Of a stretch of 64,000 bases of DNA, positions 41,770 to 50,769 are shown piece after piece; position 1 is the stretch's first letter, and each line of letters starts with the position of its first letter. The stretch comes from Phorcysia thermohydrogeniphila (lineage in GTDB: Bacteria > Aquificota > Aquificia > Desulfurobacteriales > Desulfurobacteriaceae), in assembly GCF_004339575.1 (NCBI RefSeq), contig NZ_SMFV01000001.1, forward strand, positions 425,119 to 489,118. Direction: 5' to 3'. The translations under genes and the position numbers were made by a program. The notes beneath the pieces are model-generated. The model was not told where the DNA came from, did no database searches, and saw only the letters and a list, made by a program, of their open reading frames with translations.

Positions 41770-42696
41770 ATGCAGGTCTATCAGCGCACACTCAAAAAAG
41801 AAGTTTCCTTTAGCGGAATAGGCCTCCATACGGGGAAAAAAGTAAACGTTCGCTTAGTCCCCGCACCTGCCGATACAGGGATAGTTTTCGTAAGGACCGA
41901 CCTAAAGGGAGCACCCTCCATAAAAGCCTCTCCCGAGTACCTATCTAAGCTCTTTTACGCTACAAACTTATCCAACGGAGAGATTGCGGTTCAGACAGTA
42001 GAGCACCTTATGGCAGCCCTCTCAGCCTTTGGAATAGACAACCTGTTCGTCTACCTTGACTCTGAGGAACTTCCGATACTTGACGGGAGCTCTGCCCCTT
42101 ACGTCTACCTCTTTGAAGAAACAGGCGTAAAGGACCTTCCCCATAGGAAGAGAAAATACCTAAAGCTAAAAAAGGAGATAATCGTTGAGCACGACAACAA
42201 GAGGATAAAGGCAGAGCCTGCTGACCAGCTCGTCATTGACAACACCATATCTTTTGACCACACCTACAAAAAGATTAGGTATCAGAGGCTCGTATACGTT
42301 CACAACCTTGAGAACTTCAAGGAAATTTCAAAAGCAAGAACTTTCTGCTTTTACCATGAAGTAGAAGCCTTAAGGGCAGCTGGACTTGCAAAGGGAGGAA
42401 GCTTAGAAAATGCTATAGTAATTGACAAGTACGGCATCCTCAACGAGTCAGGCCTCAGGATGGAAAACGAGTTTGTAGCTCACAAAACCCTTGACCTCGT
42501 TGGCGACCTTTACATCTTGGGATATCCGCTCCTTGCAAAAGTAACAGCTTACAGGACCGGCCACGCCCTTAACGCTGCTCTTGTTAGGAGAATATATCAG
42601 GAGAAAGTTTACGAGATAGTTGAGCTTGAGGAAGTTCAAGAGGAAAACAAACCCTTTGTGGCCTTTAATAATGAAGAAGCTTACCAAACTAATTGA
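41770..42696 (+). CDS. lpxC: UDP-3-O-acyl-N-acetylglucosamine deacetylase
   Basis: Zinc deacetylase committing to lipid A synthesis. The 308 residues start QRTLKKEVSFSGIGLHTGKKV. The zinc ligand region VEHLMAAL and the later AHKTLDLVGDLYILG (His and Asp ligands) are intact, as is the TGHALN catalytic His region. No C-terminal FabZ fusion is present. It confirms a lipid A outer membrane together with the Lpt genes. The last 26 bp overlap a small membrane gene. Confidence 0.96.
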   Translation: MQVYQRTLKKEVSFSGIGLHTGKKVNVRLVPAPADTGIVFVRTDLKGAPSIKASPEYLSKLFYATNLSNGEIAVQTVEHLMAALSAFGIDNLFVYLDSEELPILDGSSAPYVYLFEETGVKDLPHRKRKYLKLKKEIIVEHDNKRIKAEPADQLVIDNTISFDHTYKKIRYQRLVYVHNLENFKEISKARTFCFYHEVEALRAAGLAKGGSLENAIVIDKYGILNESGLRMENEFVAHKTLDLVGDLYILGYPLLAKVTAYRTGHALNAALVRRIYQEKVYEIVELEEVQEENKPFVAFNNEEAYQTN

Positions 42697-43042
42697 TGAA
42701 TACCTCTTACAGATAACTATTTTCATCTTCTTCCTGACGCTTACGTTTCTTTTACCTCTCTCAAGCGTTTCAGTACCAGAGAATTACCAGTTAAAGGTTC
42801 TTACCGTTAGGTGCCTTGTACTTGACATACTCTCCATAGTGGTCTTCGCCATCTTTGGAAAAGAAAAGCGGCGCTTTCTGTCCCTCTTTCCAGCAGGGGG
42901 TGTTTTATTCTCAACTACATATATGCTGTTTAAAGACAAGCTCTCACTCCTTCTCCTTGTCTCCTTCACAGTAACGGCCGTAATCTCTACTTCTCTCCTC
43001 GCCTTTACCCTGATAAAGGTTAGGTTCAACGGCGTAGATTGA
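42671..43042 (+). CDS. Small polytopic membrane protein, unknown function
   Basis: A 123-residue hydrophobic protein with about four predicted membrane segments (near 11-30, 43-60, 68-84, 91-114). Short basic loops (GKEKRRF, LIKVRF) separate or follow them. I do not recognise a family. The ATG at 42671 lies inside the end of lpxC in another frame, suggesting translational coupling. Its last 99 bp lie antisense to the end of the convergent 509-residue gene. Confidence 0.6.
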   Translation: MKKLTKLIDEYLLQITIFIFFLTLTFLLPLSSVSVPENYQLKVLTVRCLVLDILSIVVFAIFGKEKRRFLSLFPAGGVLFSTTYMLFKDKLSLLLLVSFTVTAVISTSLLAFTLIKVRFNGVD

Positions 43043-44473
43043 CTGGGCAGCAGTTCTAACAAAGTTTCTCTCTCCTTCAGAGAGCTTCTTGTCCCTTATG
43101 TAGCTAAGTAGAAGAGGCGGAAACACCTTAAGGTCGGTATCCCCTATTTTATCTGCAAACCTGTAACAAAAATAGAGGATGTTAAGTTTTGTCTTTAAAG
43201 GGAGGAGCCAGTTAAAGGCCTTCTGTGCCATCTCCTCAAGAACTTTATCAAAAAGTTCTTCAGGTATTGAGAGCCTTGAAAGGGCTACGATAGCGTGGTT
43301 AAGGTAGGCAATCTCCTCTTTGGTGCGAAAAGAACTCCTCTTCATTATGTATAGGAGCTCGTAAACAAAACTCTCAAGCTCCTTCCTACTCAAATCCCTC
43401 CCTGTAAGCTCCTCTATAAGCTTGACTCCCCTAAGGTCCCTCTTGTTAAAGAAGTACCTCAAGTCTTTAATTGAAACCTCGCTAACGCCAAAAGCTTCCG
43501 TTTCGCAGCCAAAAAGTTCTCTGTAGGAAGGAAAATCTACTCTCCTAAGGTGCACCTTAAAGTTTCTGTTAAGAGGAGAACGGGAAAGGAGTTCTTCCTC
43601 ACTAACCTCCCTTACAGGAACTGGAAATATCCTCTGAAGGACTTTGATAAAGGGAAACTTTAACCTACCGATAACGGCAACTTCCTTAACTTTTGGCCTC
43701 TCCCTAAGAATCTCCTCAAACTGGTAAAGGGATAGAACGAGGGCAGAGGCTAAATCTACAGCCCTTTCTACAAAATCCCCATAGTTTGATGAGCCTGTAA
43801 GTGGCGAAAGGACTAAATCAACTTCCTTAGGACTTACCTCCCTGCTATAACCGTACTCTTGGAGCTCTACCCTCTTTAAGCCCTTAAAGAGTATCTTACC
43901 TGCAAAGCTTCTAAAGCGGTCAAGGAGCTCCCCCCTCAAGCCCTTTTTACGGAGTTCCGTGTTTGATATTCCTTTCTCTAAGATAAATCTGTTAAAGAGG
44001 TAGTTCCCTAAGAGGTCAACCATGTGAAACTCGCCTACAGGGATAACGGAGAGGAAAATCCCCCCTAAGGAGAAAGAGCTCTTCGTGTAGCCAACGTTAA
44101 GAACAAGGGTCTCTGGCGGAAAGAGGTTAAAGTCGTAGTAAATTGAAACTTTACTCGCAAAGGTCTTCTCAAAAAGGTTCCTTATTAGGAAGGTAGGTTT
44201 ACCGTAGAGGTATCCCGGAAGGACGAGTTCTTTTACACTCCTTGGCTCGCAGGAGAAAAGAGCAAATTCAAGTATGTCAATAGCGTCGTATATGACGTTC
44301 CCTATGAAGATGTAGGCTTTTTGTTCAAGGTTCTCTAAAAGGGAAAGGAGCTTTCGCTTTACCTCTACGGGAACGCTAAGGTAGTCAACGTTTACCTCTT
44401 CAAGGAACAGGTCCTTCAGCTTAAACCTTCCATAAGAGCTCAAAGACTCAGGGTAACCTAAGTAAAGCCTCAA
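42944..44473 (-). CDS. Unknown protein, possible degenerate actin/Hsp70-fold ATPase
   Basis: A 509-residue protein of unrecognised family. Its outline suggests an actin/Hsp70-like fold. An N-terminal RLYLGYP strand sits where the first phosphate loop would be. LVLNVGYTKSSFSLGG...VGEFHMVDLLGNYLF (about 123-160) resembles the DIGGGTTDxS...GGxxxDxxL phosphate-2 region. VKEVAVIGRLKFPFIKVLQRIF (about 262-283) resembles the adenosine-motif GGSSRIPGV segment. The usual Asp and Gly residues are largely replaced, so nucleotide hydrolysis is doubtful. A helical C-terminal part follows (about 310-480), ending in a charged tail. It overlaps the MBL hydrolase gene by 4 bp. The fold is my inference only. 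Confidence 0.5.
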   Translation of the reverse strand: MRLYLGYPESLSSYGRFKLKDLFLEEVNVDYLSVPVEVKRKLLSLLENLEQKAYIFIGNVIYDAIDILEFALFSCEPRSVKELVLPGYLYGKPTFLIRNLFEKTFASKVSIYYDFNLFPPETLVLNVGYTKSSFSLGGIFLSVIPVGEFHMVDLLGNYLFNRFILEKGISNTELRKKGLRGELLDRFRSFAGKILFKGLKRVELQEYGYSREVSPKEVDLVLSPLTGSSNYGDFVERAVDLASALVLSLYQFEEILRERPKVKEVAVIGRLKFPFIKVLQRIFPVPVREVSEEELLSRSPLNRNFKVHLRRVDFPSYRELFGCETEAFGVSEVSIKDLRYFFNKRDLRGVKLIEELTGRDLSRKELESFVYELLYIMKRSSFRTKEEIAYLNHAIVALSRLSIPEELFDKVLEEMAQKAFNWLLPLKTKLNILYFCYRFADKIGDTDLKVFPPLLLSYIRDKKLSEGERNFVRTAAQSIYAVEPNLYQGKGEERSRDYGRYCEGDKEKE

Positions 44474-45744
44474 AACCTTATAACCTCTCTGTTTAGTCCG
44501 TGTTGTTTGAGGCTATTCGGGTAGCCGTGAACAAACACAGTCTTCTCTGGCGATAGCCTCTCCACTATCGTTTCAATTTCTCCTTTATCTGCATGTGCCG
44601 AAAAGTGGTGTCTTTCTATTCGGCAGCGGAAACTCCTTAAAACGTTCCTATCGTGAAGGAGCCTATACCCAAAGCTTTCCTCAACCATGTAGCCGCTGAA
44701 AATTATCGCTGCGGAGCTCCGCTTAGAAAGAAGCTGAGCGTAAACAAAAGAAGGAGTTCCCTCCATCAGCATTCCAGAGGTTGAGACTATACAGTCGGCT
44801 TCTCTCAGGTTCTCCATGCAAGCTTCTTCAAAGCTAAGCCCCTCATACCTTGGAGCTGGCTGAACATAGAAGTTAAAGAGCTCCCTCTCAAGGAGGTTCT
44901 CGTATATAACGGAGACTTCCTTTGCTAACCCGTCAACGTAAACCGTTAGTGGCGGTATTTTCCCTTCCCTCATCCCCTGTGAGAGGAGGAGCATAATCTC
45001 CTGAGCTCTTCCAAGGGCAAAGACGGGAATAAGTATTTTTCCCTTCCTCTCTACGGTCTCTTTAACTGTGGAATAGAACTCCTCAATAGCCTCTTCTCTG
45101 CTAAACTTCCTATCTGAGTAGTAGTAGGTACTCTCCGAAACCAAAAGGGTTGGCTTCTCTGAAGGTAACTCAGCTCCACCAGTAGTAAGCTGCGGGGTTA
45201 AAGATATATCGCCGGTATGGTAGACAAAACCGGAATCTCCGTAGAAAATACCCACAGAAGCAGCTCCCAAGATGTGACCTGCAGGGTAGAAAACAATTTC
45301 CACGTCCCCGAGGACAATCCTATCGTAAAAGTCCCTCCTCTCAAGACGCGAAAGGGCTTCGTCTAAGAGCCTATACTCCCTCCACTCATCTGGGGAGTTC
45401 CTGTTTCTTATGTACCTCACCTTTATCGCGTCCTCAACCATAAGGGAGAGGAGCTGAGCCGTCTCGTGAGTCGTGTATATGGGAGTTTCTGGGTAGAGGG
45501 AAGAGAGAAGGTGAACGCTGCCGCAGTGGTCAACGTGGGCGTGGGTAATAACTATCGCGTCAAGCTCAGGAGAGAGGCTCTTAAGGAGAGAGAAGTCCGG
45601 GTAAGGGTCCTCCGGGTTAAAGCGAATCCCAGAATCTACTAAGATCCTCTTCCCGCCAACCAAGTAGAGGTAGGCACTAGCACCTATCTCATTCCCGCCA
45701 CCTATGGGTACAAGTAAGTTCTCCATGGGAAGGAAGTTTAACAT
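44470..45744 (-). CDS. MBL-fold/beta-CASP hydrolase (probable RNA-processing nuclease)
   Basis: A 424-residue metallo-beta-lactamase-fold protein. VPIGGGNEIGASAYLYLVGG is followed by VDSG, THAHVDHCG (HxHxDH at about 68-73), PAGHILGAASVG and HTGDIS. Beta-CASP motifs continue: LVSESTYY, PVFALGRAQEI, STSGML, IIFSGYM and HHFSAHADKGEI. This matches the CPSF73/YSH1-like prokaryotic group, which cleave RNA. The ATG at 45744 directly follows the amrS stop (TGA-A-ATG). A further ATG at 45726 is in frame. The partner is the unknown gene just downstream. Confidence 0.85.
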   Translation of the reverse strand: MLNFLPMENLLVPIGGGNEIGASAYLYLVGGKRILVDSGIRFNPEDPYPDFSLLKSLSPELDAIVITHAHVDHCGSVHLLSSLYPETPIYTTHETAQLLSLMVEDAIKVRYIRNRNSPDEWREYRLLDEALSRLERRDFYDRIVLGDVEIVFYPAGHILGAASVGIFYGDSGFVYHTGDISLTPQLTTGGAELPSEKPTLLVSESTYYYSDRKFSREEAIEEFYSTVKETVERKGKILIPVFALGRAQEIMLLLSQGMREGKIPPLTVYVDGLAKEVSVIYENLLERELFNFYVQPAPRYEGLSFEEACMENLREADCIVSTSGMLMEGTPSFVYAQLLSKRSSAAIIFSGYMVEESFGYRLLHDRNVLRSFRCRIERHHFSAHADKGEIETIVERLSPEKTVFVHGYPNSLKQHGLNREVIRF

Positions 45745-45745
45745 T

Positions 45746-46747
45746 TCAGAAGACAAAGTCCACAGCTCTCCCGCAGTTAGGACACTTACCGTCAGAAGTA
45801 AAGAGAACCCTCACGTCGTAGCCTTCCCGCCTCACCAAGAGCTCCCCGCAGAAAGGACAGTAGGTAGATTCCCTCTTAGGGTCTACTACATTACCAACGT
45901 AAATGTAGTATAGGTACTCCTTTGTAACGTCATAGGCTAAGTCTAAAACCTCAACCGGCGTGGGAGGGGTGGAAAGTAGCTTATAGGCCGGGAAGAACCT
46001 TGAGTAGTGAACCGGAACGTCTTTGCCGAGGTTTTCTGCGACCCACCTTCCAAAACGTTCAAAATACTCAGGTGTAAACTCATCAAAATCGGGAACAATG
46101 AGTTTTGTAAGTTCTAAGTGTTTTCCGGCCTTCCTTATCTCCTCACACACCTTCCAGACGTTTGGGCTTGGGAAAGAGGAAAACTTAAGGTAGTAGTCAC
46201 TGTCCATTCCTTTAAGGTCAACGTTAAAGGCATCTATGAGGGGAAGGAGCTCCCTTAAGGCATTAATGTTAATGTTACCGTTAGTCACCATCACGTTGAC
46301 AAGTCCAGCTTCCTTTACCTTCTTAGCCGTATCTTTCACGTACTCAAACCAGATAATCGGGTCGTTATAGGTGTAGGCTATACCTATGGAACCGTAGCGT
46401 CTTGCGTAAGTTACAGCCGCTTCCGGTGGGAAGAACTGGCGCTGAGTTTCCTGCCTTGAGATTTCCCAGTTCTGGCAGGATTTACAGTCAAGGTTACAGC
46501 CGTTAGTTCCTATGGAGAAAATGACAGAGCCGGGATAAAAGTGGTAGAGGGGTTTCTTCTCTATCGGGTCGTAGGCCGCCGAGGTTACTTCTCCATAAAC
46601 TACGGTGTAGAGAATACCTCCCCTGTTCTTCCTCACAAGACAGAACCCTTGCCCTCCATCCGGTATAGTACACTCCCTTGGACAGAGTACACACTTTACC
46701 TTATTACCCTCCAGCGGTACGTAGTACTCAGCTTCAAGCGTAGGCAT
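45746..46747 (-). CDS. amrS: AmmeMemoRadiSam system radical SAM enzyme
   Basis: A 333-residue radical SAM protein of the PflA-like AmrS family. N-terminal CVLCPREC and later FC make a Cys cluster, and the radical SAM site CNLDCKSC has Cys84, Cys88 and Cys91. IAYTYNDPIIWFEY, NVDLKGMDSDYY and HYSRFFPAYK are typical. The C-terminus adds a zinc ribbon (CPFCGELL...CPNCGRAV). AmrA and AmrB partners are not nearby. GGAGGG precedes the ATG. It leads a three-gene operon with the MBL hydrolase and the unknown gene. Confidence 0.9.
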   Translation of the reverse strand: MPTLEAEYYVPLEGNKVKCVLCPRECTIPDGGQGFCLVRKNRGGILYTVVYGEVTSAAYDPIEKKPLYHFYPGSVIFSIGTNGCNLDCKSCQNWEISRQETQRQFFPPEAAVTYARRYGSIGIAYTYNDPIIWFEYVKDTAKKVKEAGLVNVMVTNGNININALRELLPLIDAFNVDLKGMDSDYYLKFSSFPSPNVWKVCEEIRKAGKHLELTKLIVPDFDEFTPEYFERFGRWVAENLGKDVPVHYSRFFPAYKLLSTPPTPVEVLDLAYDVTKEYLYYIYVGNVVDPKRESTYCPFCGELLVRREGYDVRVLFTSDGKCPNCGRAVDFVF

Positions 46748-48985: not shown

Positions 48986-49676
48986 CCCTCTCCTTGACCC
49001 TAAAACGGACGACCCCAAATCCTCCAATTGGCAAGTTAAAACCGAGTTTCCTCTCTATCCTATCGCTTAAGAATCCATCCACACATAAATTAAGAGTCGT
49101 GTAAAAGGTGTCAAAGGTGACAATTTTGTCAGTTATCTCCCTTGCAAAACGCGCAAAGCTTTTTATTTCGTCAAGGGAGAGAAAGTTAGCCTTCCTGTAG
49201 GCTGTTGCTTTTAGCAGGGACTTAAAATAGCGGTAGGCGGAAAGGAGGGAATACTTATTAAGGAAACCCACGACAACAGCTTCCTTTGCCACTTTTACGG
49301 CCTCAACAAAGGCCTTCCTCCCATCACCGATAAACTCAAGGCTCGTTATAAAGAGGACAACATCTACGCTATTTTTCTTAAAAGGAAGGTGGTGGGCGTC
49401 GCCCCTAACTAGCTTTTTAAGGCCTTTTCTCCTTGCAACTCTTAACATATCCTCAGAGATGTCAATTCCTATTGGCTCTTTAAACCCTTCCTCCACTAAG
49501 GTTTTTATCCAAATACCGGTACCACATCCTACTTCAAGAATTTCTTTATCCCTCTTATCCTCAAGAACCTTAAGAAGGAGCTCTCTCTCAAAGCTAAAGA
49601 CCTTCTTACCGAATTCCGTTTCAAAAAAGCTATCGTACTCCTCGGCTACTTTTCCGCAGAAAGCATTACTCTCCAA
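48942..49676 (-). CDS. Class I SAM-dependent methyltransferase
   Basis: A 244-residue Methyltransf_11-type protein. Motif I is ILEVGCGTGIWIKTL, followed by IGIDISEDMLRVARRKG, VRGDAHHLPFKKNSVDVVLF (motif II/post II) and AVVVGFLNKYS. The substrate is unknown. The start is TTG at 49676, with GGGAGGGAG 5 nt upstream, inside the end of nurA. The 3' end runs 44 bp into selU, so nurA-methyltransferase-selU form one transcript. A role in tRNA modification with SelU is possible but not shown. Confidence 0.85.
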   Translation of the reverse strand: MESNAFCGKVAEEYDSFFETEFGKKVFSFERELLLKVLEDKRDKEILEVGCGTGIWIKTLVEEGFKEPIGIDISEDMLRVARRKGLKKLVRGDAHHLPFKKNSVDVVLFITSLEFIGDGRKAFVEAVKVAKEAVVVGFLNKYSLLSAYRYFKSLLKATAYRKANFLSLDEIKSFARFAREITDKIVTFDTFYTTLNLCVDGFLSDRIERKLGFNLPIGGFGVVRFRVKERDGAGKRGYSRRGLK

Positions 49677-50736
49677 GGGACTCCCTCCCAGTTACCCCTC
49701 TGTGCTTAAGAAGCTCAACGGTAAATTCAACGTCACTGCTTTTTATCTTAACGAGCTCGTGGACGTCCCTTAAAGGGTATGGATACCCCCTAACCGCATA
49801 GTATCTAAGTATAGACAGAGCATCCTGCGGTTTTAGAGCCGTTTCAACCTTAAGGACGCTTCCCTTTGGAAGGCGGAAGAAAAAGGAGTAAAACTCAAAA
49901 CCCCTCAGCTTTTCTTCAAATTTTTCAGGAAACTTAAACTTTTTCTCCTTTGTCACAGAAACCCTGATAGGCTTCGTGTAACCCGGAGGAAGGTCAAGGG
50001 AATTAAGGACTGCAACGTCAGGAAGGAGCGGGTCAAAGGAATAATTTCGGGAATCGGAGTGTTTAGACACAGAAATGATTTTATCTACCCCCTTTTTAAG
50101 CAAGAGGTAGAGGGAATAAAGGTACTCTAAGTACTCCAAGTAACCTGCAACAACAGCAAATTCTCTGCCAGAGGCAAACTTTTTGAGCTCGCCGTAGTAC
50201 CTTGCTGAATCAATCGGGAACTCTGAAGAAAGAGAAAAGTTAGGAACTAAAAAGTCTTTAAAGAGTTCCTCTACTTTTGCTTTAAGCTCTGGAGGAACCT
50301 CCTGATTAAAAACCGAAGGCCTCACCATTGCGCCGACTATAGAACCGTCAAGGAGGATGTACGAGACGCTGTCACAGTTAAGGAGGGCCGTCTTAAACTC
50401 CAATATACCCATAAGTATCCTTATCCTTGCGTCTGAGTACTCCTCAGGCTTAAGGAGGTCTATGTCCACTAAAAACCTTTCCCCTCCTTTAACCCTCTGA
50501 CCATCCCTATACAGGACGCTCCCAGCTCCAACGGCGTAGAGGACGTAACCAGCAAAAGACTTTCTGTTCCTGCTGCCGTCAACCGCAACAGTAGAGTCTG
50601 GCCTAAACTCTTCCGGCAGTTCAGAAATCCAGACTTCCCACACTCTCTCTTCTAAAGTAGCGTAATTCCCCTCAATAAGCTTGAGCCGGTCTTTTTTTCT
50701 AAGGGCTGTTTCTATAAGGTATCTCTTTATAGCCAT
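49666..50736 (-). CDS. nurA: NurA domain nuclease
   Basis: A 356-residue NurA-family 5'-3' nuclease. VAVDGSRNRKSFAGYVLYAVGA (Asp53) and SYILLDGSIVGAM (Asp130) give the acidic catalytic residues. SVSKHSDSRNYSFD and the C-terminal FFRLPKGSVLKVE...DVHELVKI segments also fit. NurA normally works with the HerA helicase in end resection; no herA is in this window. The ATG at 50736 follows TAGGAGGGG. It diverges from a transpeptidase gene with a perfect palindrome in the 48-bp gap. Confidence 0.85.
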   Translation of the reverse strand: MAIKRYLIETALRKKDRLKLIEGNYATLEERVWEVWISELPEEFRPDSTVAVDGSRNRKSFAGYVLYAVGAGSVLYRDGQRVKGGERFLVDIDLLKPEEYSDARIRILMGILEFKTALLNCDSVSYILLDGSIVGAMVRPSVFNQEVPPELKAKVEELFKDFLVPNFSLSSEFPIDSARYYGELKKFASGREFAVVAGYLEYLEYLYSLYLLLKKGVDKIISVSKHSDSRNYSFDPLLPDVAVLNSLDLPPGYTKPIRVSVTKEKKFKFPEKFEEKLRGFEFYSFFFRLPKGSVLKVETALKPQDALSILRYYAVRGYPYPLRDVHELVKIKSSDVEFTVELLKHRGVTGRESLGE

Positions 50737-50752
50737 TTTAACCCCTCCTAAC

Positions 50753-50769
50753 GGCATATATTATATGCC
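50753..50769. promoter_or_regulatory. Perfect inverted repeat between nurA and transpeptidase gene
   Basis: GGCATATA-T-TATATGCC, two 8-base arms around a single T, fills the middle of the 48-bp divergent gap. It lies directly between the ribosome binding sites of the two genes. It could be an operator for a dimeric repressor of both genes. The A/T-rich core may instead contain overlapping -10 boxes. It is too short and tightly closed to be a good RNA hairpin. Confidence 0.5.

Follow-up and report, generated by a model that had tools for sequence, protein, structure and literature searches.

A conserved gene pair of the Desulfurobacteriaceae encoding a beta-CASP-type nuclease and a protein with a predicted degenerate Hsp70/actin fold

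Introduction

Beta-CASP RNases of the CPSF73/INTS11 kind trim the ends of messenger RNAs in human cells. These nucleases work with protein partners, as in INTS11-INTS9-BRAT1 and CPSF73-CPSF100, the partners being a catalytically dead MBL paralogue and a protein of the HEAT type. To our knowledge, neither assembly contains an Hsp70-fold subunit. BRAT1 has been reported to stabilise INTS11 (PMC9418311). A simpler enzyme is found in archaea, where aCPSF2, a protein of about 420 aa reduced to the MBL and beta-CASP core and devoid of KH domains, is a 5'-3' exoribonuclease for which no Hsp70-fold partner is reported in the same article (PMC3792030). Hsp70-like proteins have been described next to RNases in the CoCoNuT systems, in which CnuD combines Hsp70-like and HEAT-like parts and is predicted to be a poor ATPase at best and to bind RNA (PMC11090510).

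The locus presented here brings together features of these separate families. It lies in a window of 64,000 nucleotides, the whole stretch of DNA that was analysed, taken from a 1.62 Mb genome whose relatives are Desulfurobacterium, Thermovibrio and other Desulfurobacteriaceae, a family of thermophiles from the deep sea. Its core is a pair of genes encoding a beta-CASP-type nuclease and a 509-aa protein with a predicted Hsp70/actin-like body and a HEAT-like arm. The nearest published analogue is CoCoNuT CnuD, or the Type III CnuCD, which likewise places Hsp70-like and HEAT-like domains beside RNases. The CoCoNuT RNase, however, is a HEPN enzyme and the core of these systems is McrB/McrC, whereas the present nuclease is of the beta-CASP type and the module is limited to two genes; no HEPN RNase, McrB-type GTPase or McrC homologue was found among the neighbour genes examined. 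A preliminary description of the window, which had recognised no known system with such parts, was roughly right for the exact pair, but close precedents exist in the CoCoNuTs and in the plasmid operons described below.

Gene organization and conservation of the pair

That description had proposed an operon of three genes for amrS, a hydrolase and an actin/Hsp70-like protein, joined by junctions of 1-4 bp. The three minus-strand open reading frames are indeed present: amrS at 45746..46747 (333 aa, a radical SAM enzyme), the hydrolase gene at 44470..45726 and the gene of the 509-aa protein at 42944..44473, with a TTG start. The hydrolase and 509-aa genes do share a 4-base overlap, but an overlap between amrS and the hydrolase gene would require an unlikely TTG start. 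The hydrolase reading frame opens at 45756 (428 aa), and most relatives start at the ATG of a 'MENL' motif that corresponds to window position 45726. This conserved ATG, rather than the TTG overlapping amrS, is most likely the true start, which would leave amrS and the hydrolase gene about 19 nt apart.

The pair was searched in 136 Aquificota genomes. The 509-aa gene was detected in 20 of them, all from a single family, the Desulfurobacteriaceae, of which 22 genomes are available in the sample; in the two remaining members, whose completeness is 83-85%, the hydrolase is missing as well. The two genes therefore co-occur in relatives as expected from the preliminary description. In every genome having the pair (20/20), the 509-aa gene directly follows the hydrolase gene, the 4-base TTGA stop/start overlap is identical, and a ribosome-binding-site-like GAGGT, which lies inside the hydrolase gene and precedes the TTG start by about 9 nt (44483..44487, minus strand, in the window), is invariant. 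The glutamate codon contained in this GAGGT is GAG in all 20 genomes, compared with 52% GAG use across the hydrolase gene (p about 2e-6, shared ancestry being ignored). These signals constitute good evidence that the two genes are translationally coupled, and such a coupling would point to a need for matched amounts of both proteins. The pair is single-copy, with 45-76% identity across the family, and in several genera it sits inside a conserved housekeeping block. No relative of the 509-aa protein was found outside the Desulfurobacteriaceae in plasmids, in viral contigs or, by one motif-based scan, in other genomes.

The place of amrS is different. Its identity was confirmed by the TIGR04337 profile (307 bits for a cut-off of 220), and it adjoins the hydrolase gene in the window and in genomes G008 and G005, an arrangement in keeping with the three-part RNA-processing complex of AmrS, hydrolase and Hsp70-fold protein that had first been suggested. 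The genome context contradicts this proposal, which is highly improbable. Indeed, amrS lies elsewhere in 5 of the 18 testable genomes (G002, G003, G007, G012 and G016), in which the pair stays together; in about 11 relatives, a gene for a phosphatidylethanolamine-binding protein (PEBP, PF01161) is found just before the hydrolase gene, and in several genera a PEBP gene separates the hydrolase gene from amrS. In addition, amrS is part of a longer conserved block with selU-type rhodanese, NurA and lpxC genes, and an AmrS homologue is kept by Aquificota without the pair. Conservation of the gene neighbourhood, the check proposed at the outset, consequently holds for the hydrolase and its partner but not for amrS: this loosely linked neighbour is a bystander, and the unit is a pair rather than a trio.

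A nuclease of the CPSF73/INTS11 kind

The hydrolase matches PF00753, PF10996 and PF07521, all above cut-off, which bears out its original assignment as a beta-CASP hydrolase. The residues that define beta-CASP nucleases (HxHxDH, the histidine of motif 3, the aspartate of motif 4, and motifs A (D/E), B (H) and C (H)) are all found, in the form of THAHVDH, AGH, GDIS, SES, HFSAH and VHG sequences that are conserved in the family. When compared with the sequences of the PDB, the protein matches INTS11 best, followed by aCPSF, CPSF73, Cas14 and TTHA0252. The profile of the aCPSF1/FttA class (TIGR03675) is matched over its positions 178-605 alone, with 232 bits for a cut-off of 580, and no KH domain is present in the hydrolase, which places it outside this class. 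The RNase J profile (TIGR00649) is matched by an N-terminal stretch only, with 54 bits where 400 are needed; no RNase J above cut-off was found in any genome of the sample. The genome of the window does encode RNase E/G and RNase Y. The hydrolase is also distinct from the TTHA0252-like enzyme of most other Aquificota (28-31% identity). This latter enzyme is missing from the genome of the window, and the hydrolase is therefore the sole CPSF-type beta-CASP protein there.

With 418-428 aa and no extra domain, the protein resembles archaeal aCPSF2 in its published size and core (PMC3792030). Judging from these motifs and profiles, the hydrolase, which has no KH domain, is probably a catalytically active beta-CASP enzyme of the CPSF73/INTS11/aCPSF kind and is predicted to cleave RNA.

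A partner with a predicted Hsp70/actin fold

The 509-aa protein has no sequence match in Pfam, NCBIfam, PADLOC or the PDB, its best Pfam scores being those expected by chance. Its structure was predicted by AlphaFold2 from 18 sequences, with one protein per model. The whole protein was modelled with a pLDDT of 86.7, but the presence of two domains blurred the full-length Foldseek search, so the N-terminal domain (residues 1-314; 43532..44473, minus strand) was modelled alone and reached a pLDDT of 93.7 and a pTM of 0.89. Against the PDB, this domain gave 22 Foldseek matches at E <= 0.001, all of them of the ASKHA class, including DnaK, actin, MreB, ParM, Ssz1, MamK and crenactin. The best match is the nucleotide-binding domain of DnaK (E 9.8e-7, probability 1.00, TM 0.51); TM-scores are moderate over the set (0.3-0.55, mostly 0.4-0.55). 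As read from the model, the elements follow twice the order beta-beta-beta-alpha-beta-alpha-beta-alpha, with reduced IB-/IIB-like inserts, which is the duplicated RNase-H-like fold (beta3-alpha-beta-alpha-beta-alpha, twice) by which the ASKHA class is defined. Among viral structures, Foldseek returned for the 509-aa protein one Hsp70-like fragment, the rest being noise. The degenerate actin/Hsp70 fold first suspected from the layout of strands and loops is thus supported by a confident model, and the proposed comparison with actin/Hsp70 proteins found DnaK and MreB among the matches.

The resemblance is limited to the overall fold, which is shared with Hsp70/DnaK, actin, MreB and crenactin. 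By contrast with these proteins, no sequence kinship to DnaK, MreB, FtsA or PilM was detectable with hhalign, the Hsp70 profile (PF00012) is not matched, and the beta-sandwich substrate-binding domain of Hsp70 is absent from the model, in which the C-terminal part is all helical. The canonical nucleotide motifs D-x-G, D-x-G-G-G and G-G are likewise not found. When motif equivalences were set by matching strands and turns to DnaK, and not by superposition, phosphate-1 (DLGTTNS) corresponded to YLGYPxS, phosphate-2 (DLGGGT) to NxGYxx and the adenosine motif (GG) to GR; Tyr4, Asn126 and Arg270 at these places are invariant in the 18 sequences. The four turns at the nucleotide positions contain 11 invariant residues out of 21, as compared with 59 out of 292 elsewhere (p 0.002), and control turns taken elsewhere have no such excess (p 0.37). 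Since the loops of the cleft are conserved and yet apparently rebuilt, ATP hydrolysis by the predicted domain is unlikely, and the binding of a ligand or of RNA is likely. The scaffold ATPase of the preliminary description is doubtful: a scaffold or pseudo-ATPase fits better, because the expected acidic residues are apparently replaced by invariant Tyr and Asn.

The same conservation could also signal a regulator that binds ATP, ADP or another nucleotide and switches the RNase according to the energy or stress state of the cell. Invariant D185 and R188 fall, by visual placement, at the site expected for the helix that contacts adenosine in Hsp70, and ATP/ADP binding is predicted to persist in the CnuD homologues (PMC11090510). 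The apparent replacement of both phosphate-loop aspartates, together with the invariant Gly-Arg in place of the Gly-Gly of the adenosine loop, makes this nucleotide sensor fairly unlikely.

The genomic background is compatible with a domain that no longer depends on nucleotides. DnaK (PF00012) is absent from all 24 Desulfurobacteriales genomes (G000-G023), in agreement with the loss of DnaK-DnaJ-GrpE published for D. thermolithotrophum and T. ammonificans (Warnecke 2012, as cited in PMC8215388). A role independent of nucleotides would be in keeping with an Hsp70-fold protein that works without co-chaperones. In these 24 genomes, matches to the MreB family are weak and FtsA-like only, so that a true MreB seems absent as well; the FtsA of genome G000 (C1:52351-52830) has itself a degenerate phosphate-2 motif, YMGAGNT instead of D-x-G-G-x-T.

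The C-terminal domain (about residues 335-480; 43034..43471, minus strand) is made of helices only in the AlphaFold2 model and is predicted to be ARM/HEAT-like: its Foldseek matches, with modest E-values, are DHR14, beta-catenin, Armc8, importin-alpha and BRAT1. The match to BRAT1, in the INTS9-INTS11-BRAT1 structure, is a hint only. It evokes a partner that would stabilise or mature the RNase, in the manner of BRAT1 with INTS11 (PMC9418311), without any catalytic part, a role for which the probable translational coupling would also be well suited. This match is nevertheless not significant (E 1.1) and is one of many to solenoid proteins; moreover, the mean column identity is higher in the Hsp70-fold body (66%) than over the whole protein (60%). 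An assembly or stability factor is accordingly considered improbable.

Relatives of the nuclease on plasmids

Two plasmid-borne relatives of the nuclease belong to an operon in which the beta-CASP gene is followed by genes for a coiled-coil protein, an Hsp70 and a HEAT-repeat protein, as identified with Pfam. This four-gene operon, apparently undescribed, occurs in two phyla, on Priestia megaterium plasmid NZ_CP032530 (L154:10062-16919) and on Klebsiella grimontii plasmid CP079755 (L155:8948-16557), where the annotation splits the Hsp70 in two. No further cassette was found in a search of plasmids, phages, viral contigs and E. coli, and no Hsp70 or HEAT neighbour was seen beside the nuclease relatives of Herpetosiphon, Nostoc, Crinalium, Deinococcus, Paracoccus, Anaerotruncus, Halorussus and Criblamydia. 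In a maximum-likelihood tree of beta-CASP proteins, which samples the Aquificota and plasmid-borne relatives only, the window clade forms a single clade with the Priestia and Klebsiella nucleases (support 99/98), and the grouping of the window clade with Herpetosiphon, the next candidate, was rejected (p 0.013). Within this sampling, no enzyme outside the window clade is thus closer to the window hydrolase than the plasmid one, even if the latter carries an N-terminal extension. The operons differ from the pair by their mobility, by separate Hsp70 and HEAT genes and by the extra coiled-coil gene, as opposed to a chromosomal module of two genes.

As the plasmid neighbourhoods were examined after the fold had been found, a beta-CASP nuclease, an Hsp70 fold and a HEAT-type arm can be said to meet twice independently. 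The 509-aa protein may descend from a fusion of cassette-type Hsp70 and HEAT proteins. The cassette Hsp70 keeps the canonical motifs, however, and no sequence kinship is detectable between the cassette Hsp70 or HEAT protein and the 509-aa protein, so convergence is possible as well. Over a short C-terminal stretch, the coiled-coil protein resembles GrpE of E. coli; a GrpE-like nature was considered and rejected (7% hhalign probability, no Pfam match).

Both plasmid operons lie near an HNH endonuclease gene, and that of Priestia also near dprA. This location, together with the association of Hsp70-like and RNase parts in the CoCoNuTs, would suit a function in anti-phage defence. The mobile cassettes would then cut RNA in infected cells, and the window pair would be related to them but chromosomal. 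The distribution of the pair, once per genome in 20 of the 22 Desulfurobacteriaceae and within a housekeeping block in several genera, speaks against this possibility, as does its absence from viral contigs. Neither the window pair nor, for any specific system, the plasmid operon is matched in PADLOC. Defence has consequently a slim chance of being the function of the pair; being chromosomal and single-copy, the pair probably has a housekeeping role in the processing or decay of RNA, rather than one in immunity.

Proposed function

It is very probable that the nuclease and the 509-aa protein associate in a complex for RNA processing that has no published description, the physical interaction being suggested by their fixed pairing. 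The more precise model of an RNase module made of two subunits, a KH-less beta-CASP RNase and, as its obligate partner, a non-hydrolysing Hsp70-fold/HEAT protein that would hold the nuclease and present RNA to it, has in our opinion about an even chance of being correct. According to this model, the partner would be made in step with the RNase by translational coupling, and its ARM/HEAT-like arm would dock on the enzyme. The Hsp70-fold body, with a cleft that no longer hydrolyses ATP, would bind RNA or a fixed ligand and would deliver RNA to the RNase or gate its access. The partner would in this way supply the recognition given elsewhere by KH domains or by the CPSF and Integrator partners.

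A broader and rather doubtful extension is that of a new class of RNA-processing machine, in which a CPSF73/INTS11-type nuclease is governed by a non-hydrolysing Hsp70-fold/HEAT subunit. The mobile four-gene versions would keep a canonical Hsp70, and the DnaK-less Desulfurobacteriaceae would have made a fused, nucleotide-independent housekeeping form of two genes. If true, this would join two subjects so far separate, the beta-CASP nucleases of CPSF/Integrator type and the Hsp70-fold proteins with altered ATPase found beside RNases in the CoCoNuTs. In such a compact thermophilic system, the targeting or gating of a nuclease by its partner could be solved with one structure. It would also raise the question of the use made of the Hsp70 fold in a lineage that lost DnaK-DnaJ-GrpE.

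Other features of the locus

Examples of the PEBP gene of the relatives are found at L026:6275-6733, L022:6518-6988 and L025:11227-11685; this gene is missing at the corresponding place in the window. A convergent plus-strand gene (42620-43042), encoding a 140-aa protein that is kept in relatives, overlaps the 509-aa gene at its 3' end over about 99 bases (42944-43042). Further along the conserved block that contains amrS, a NurA nuclease-domain protein is encoded at 49666-50757 and adjoins methyltransferase-like and selU-type rhodanese genes.
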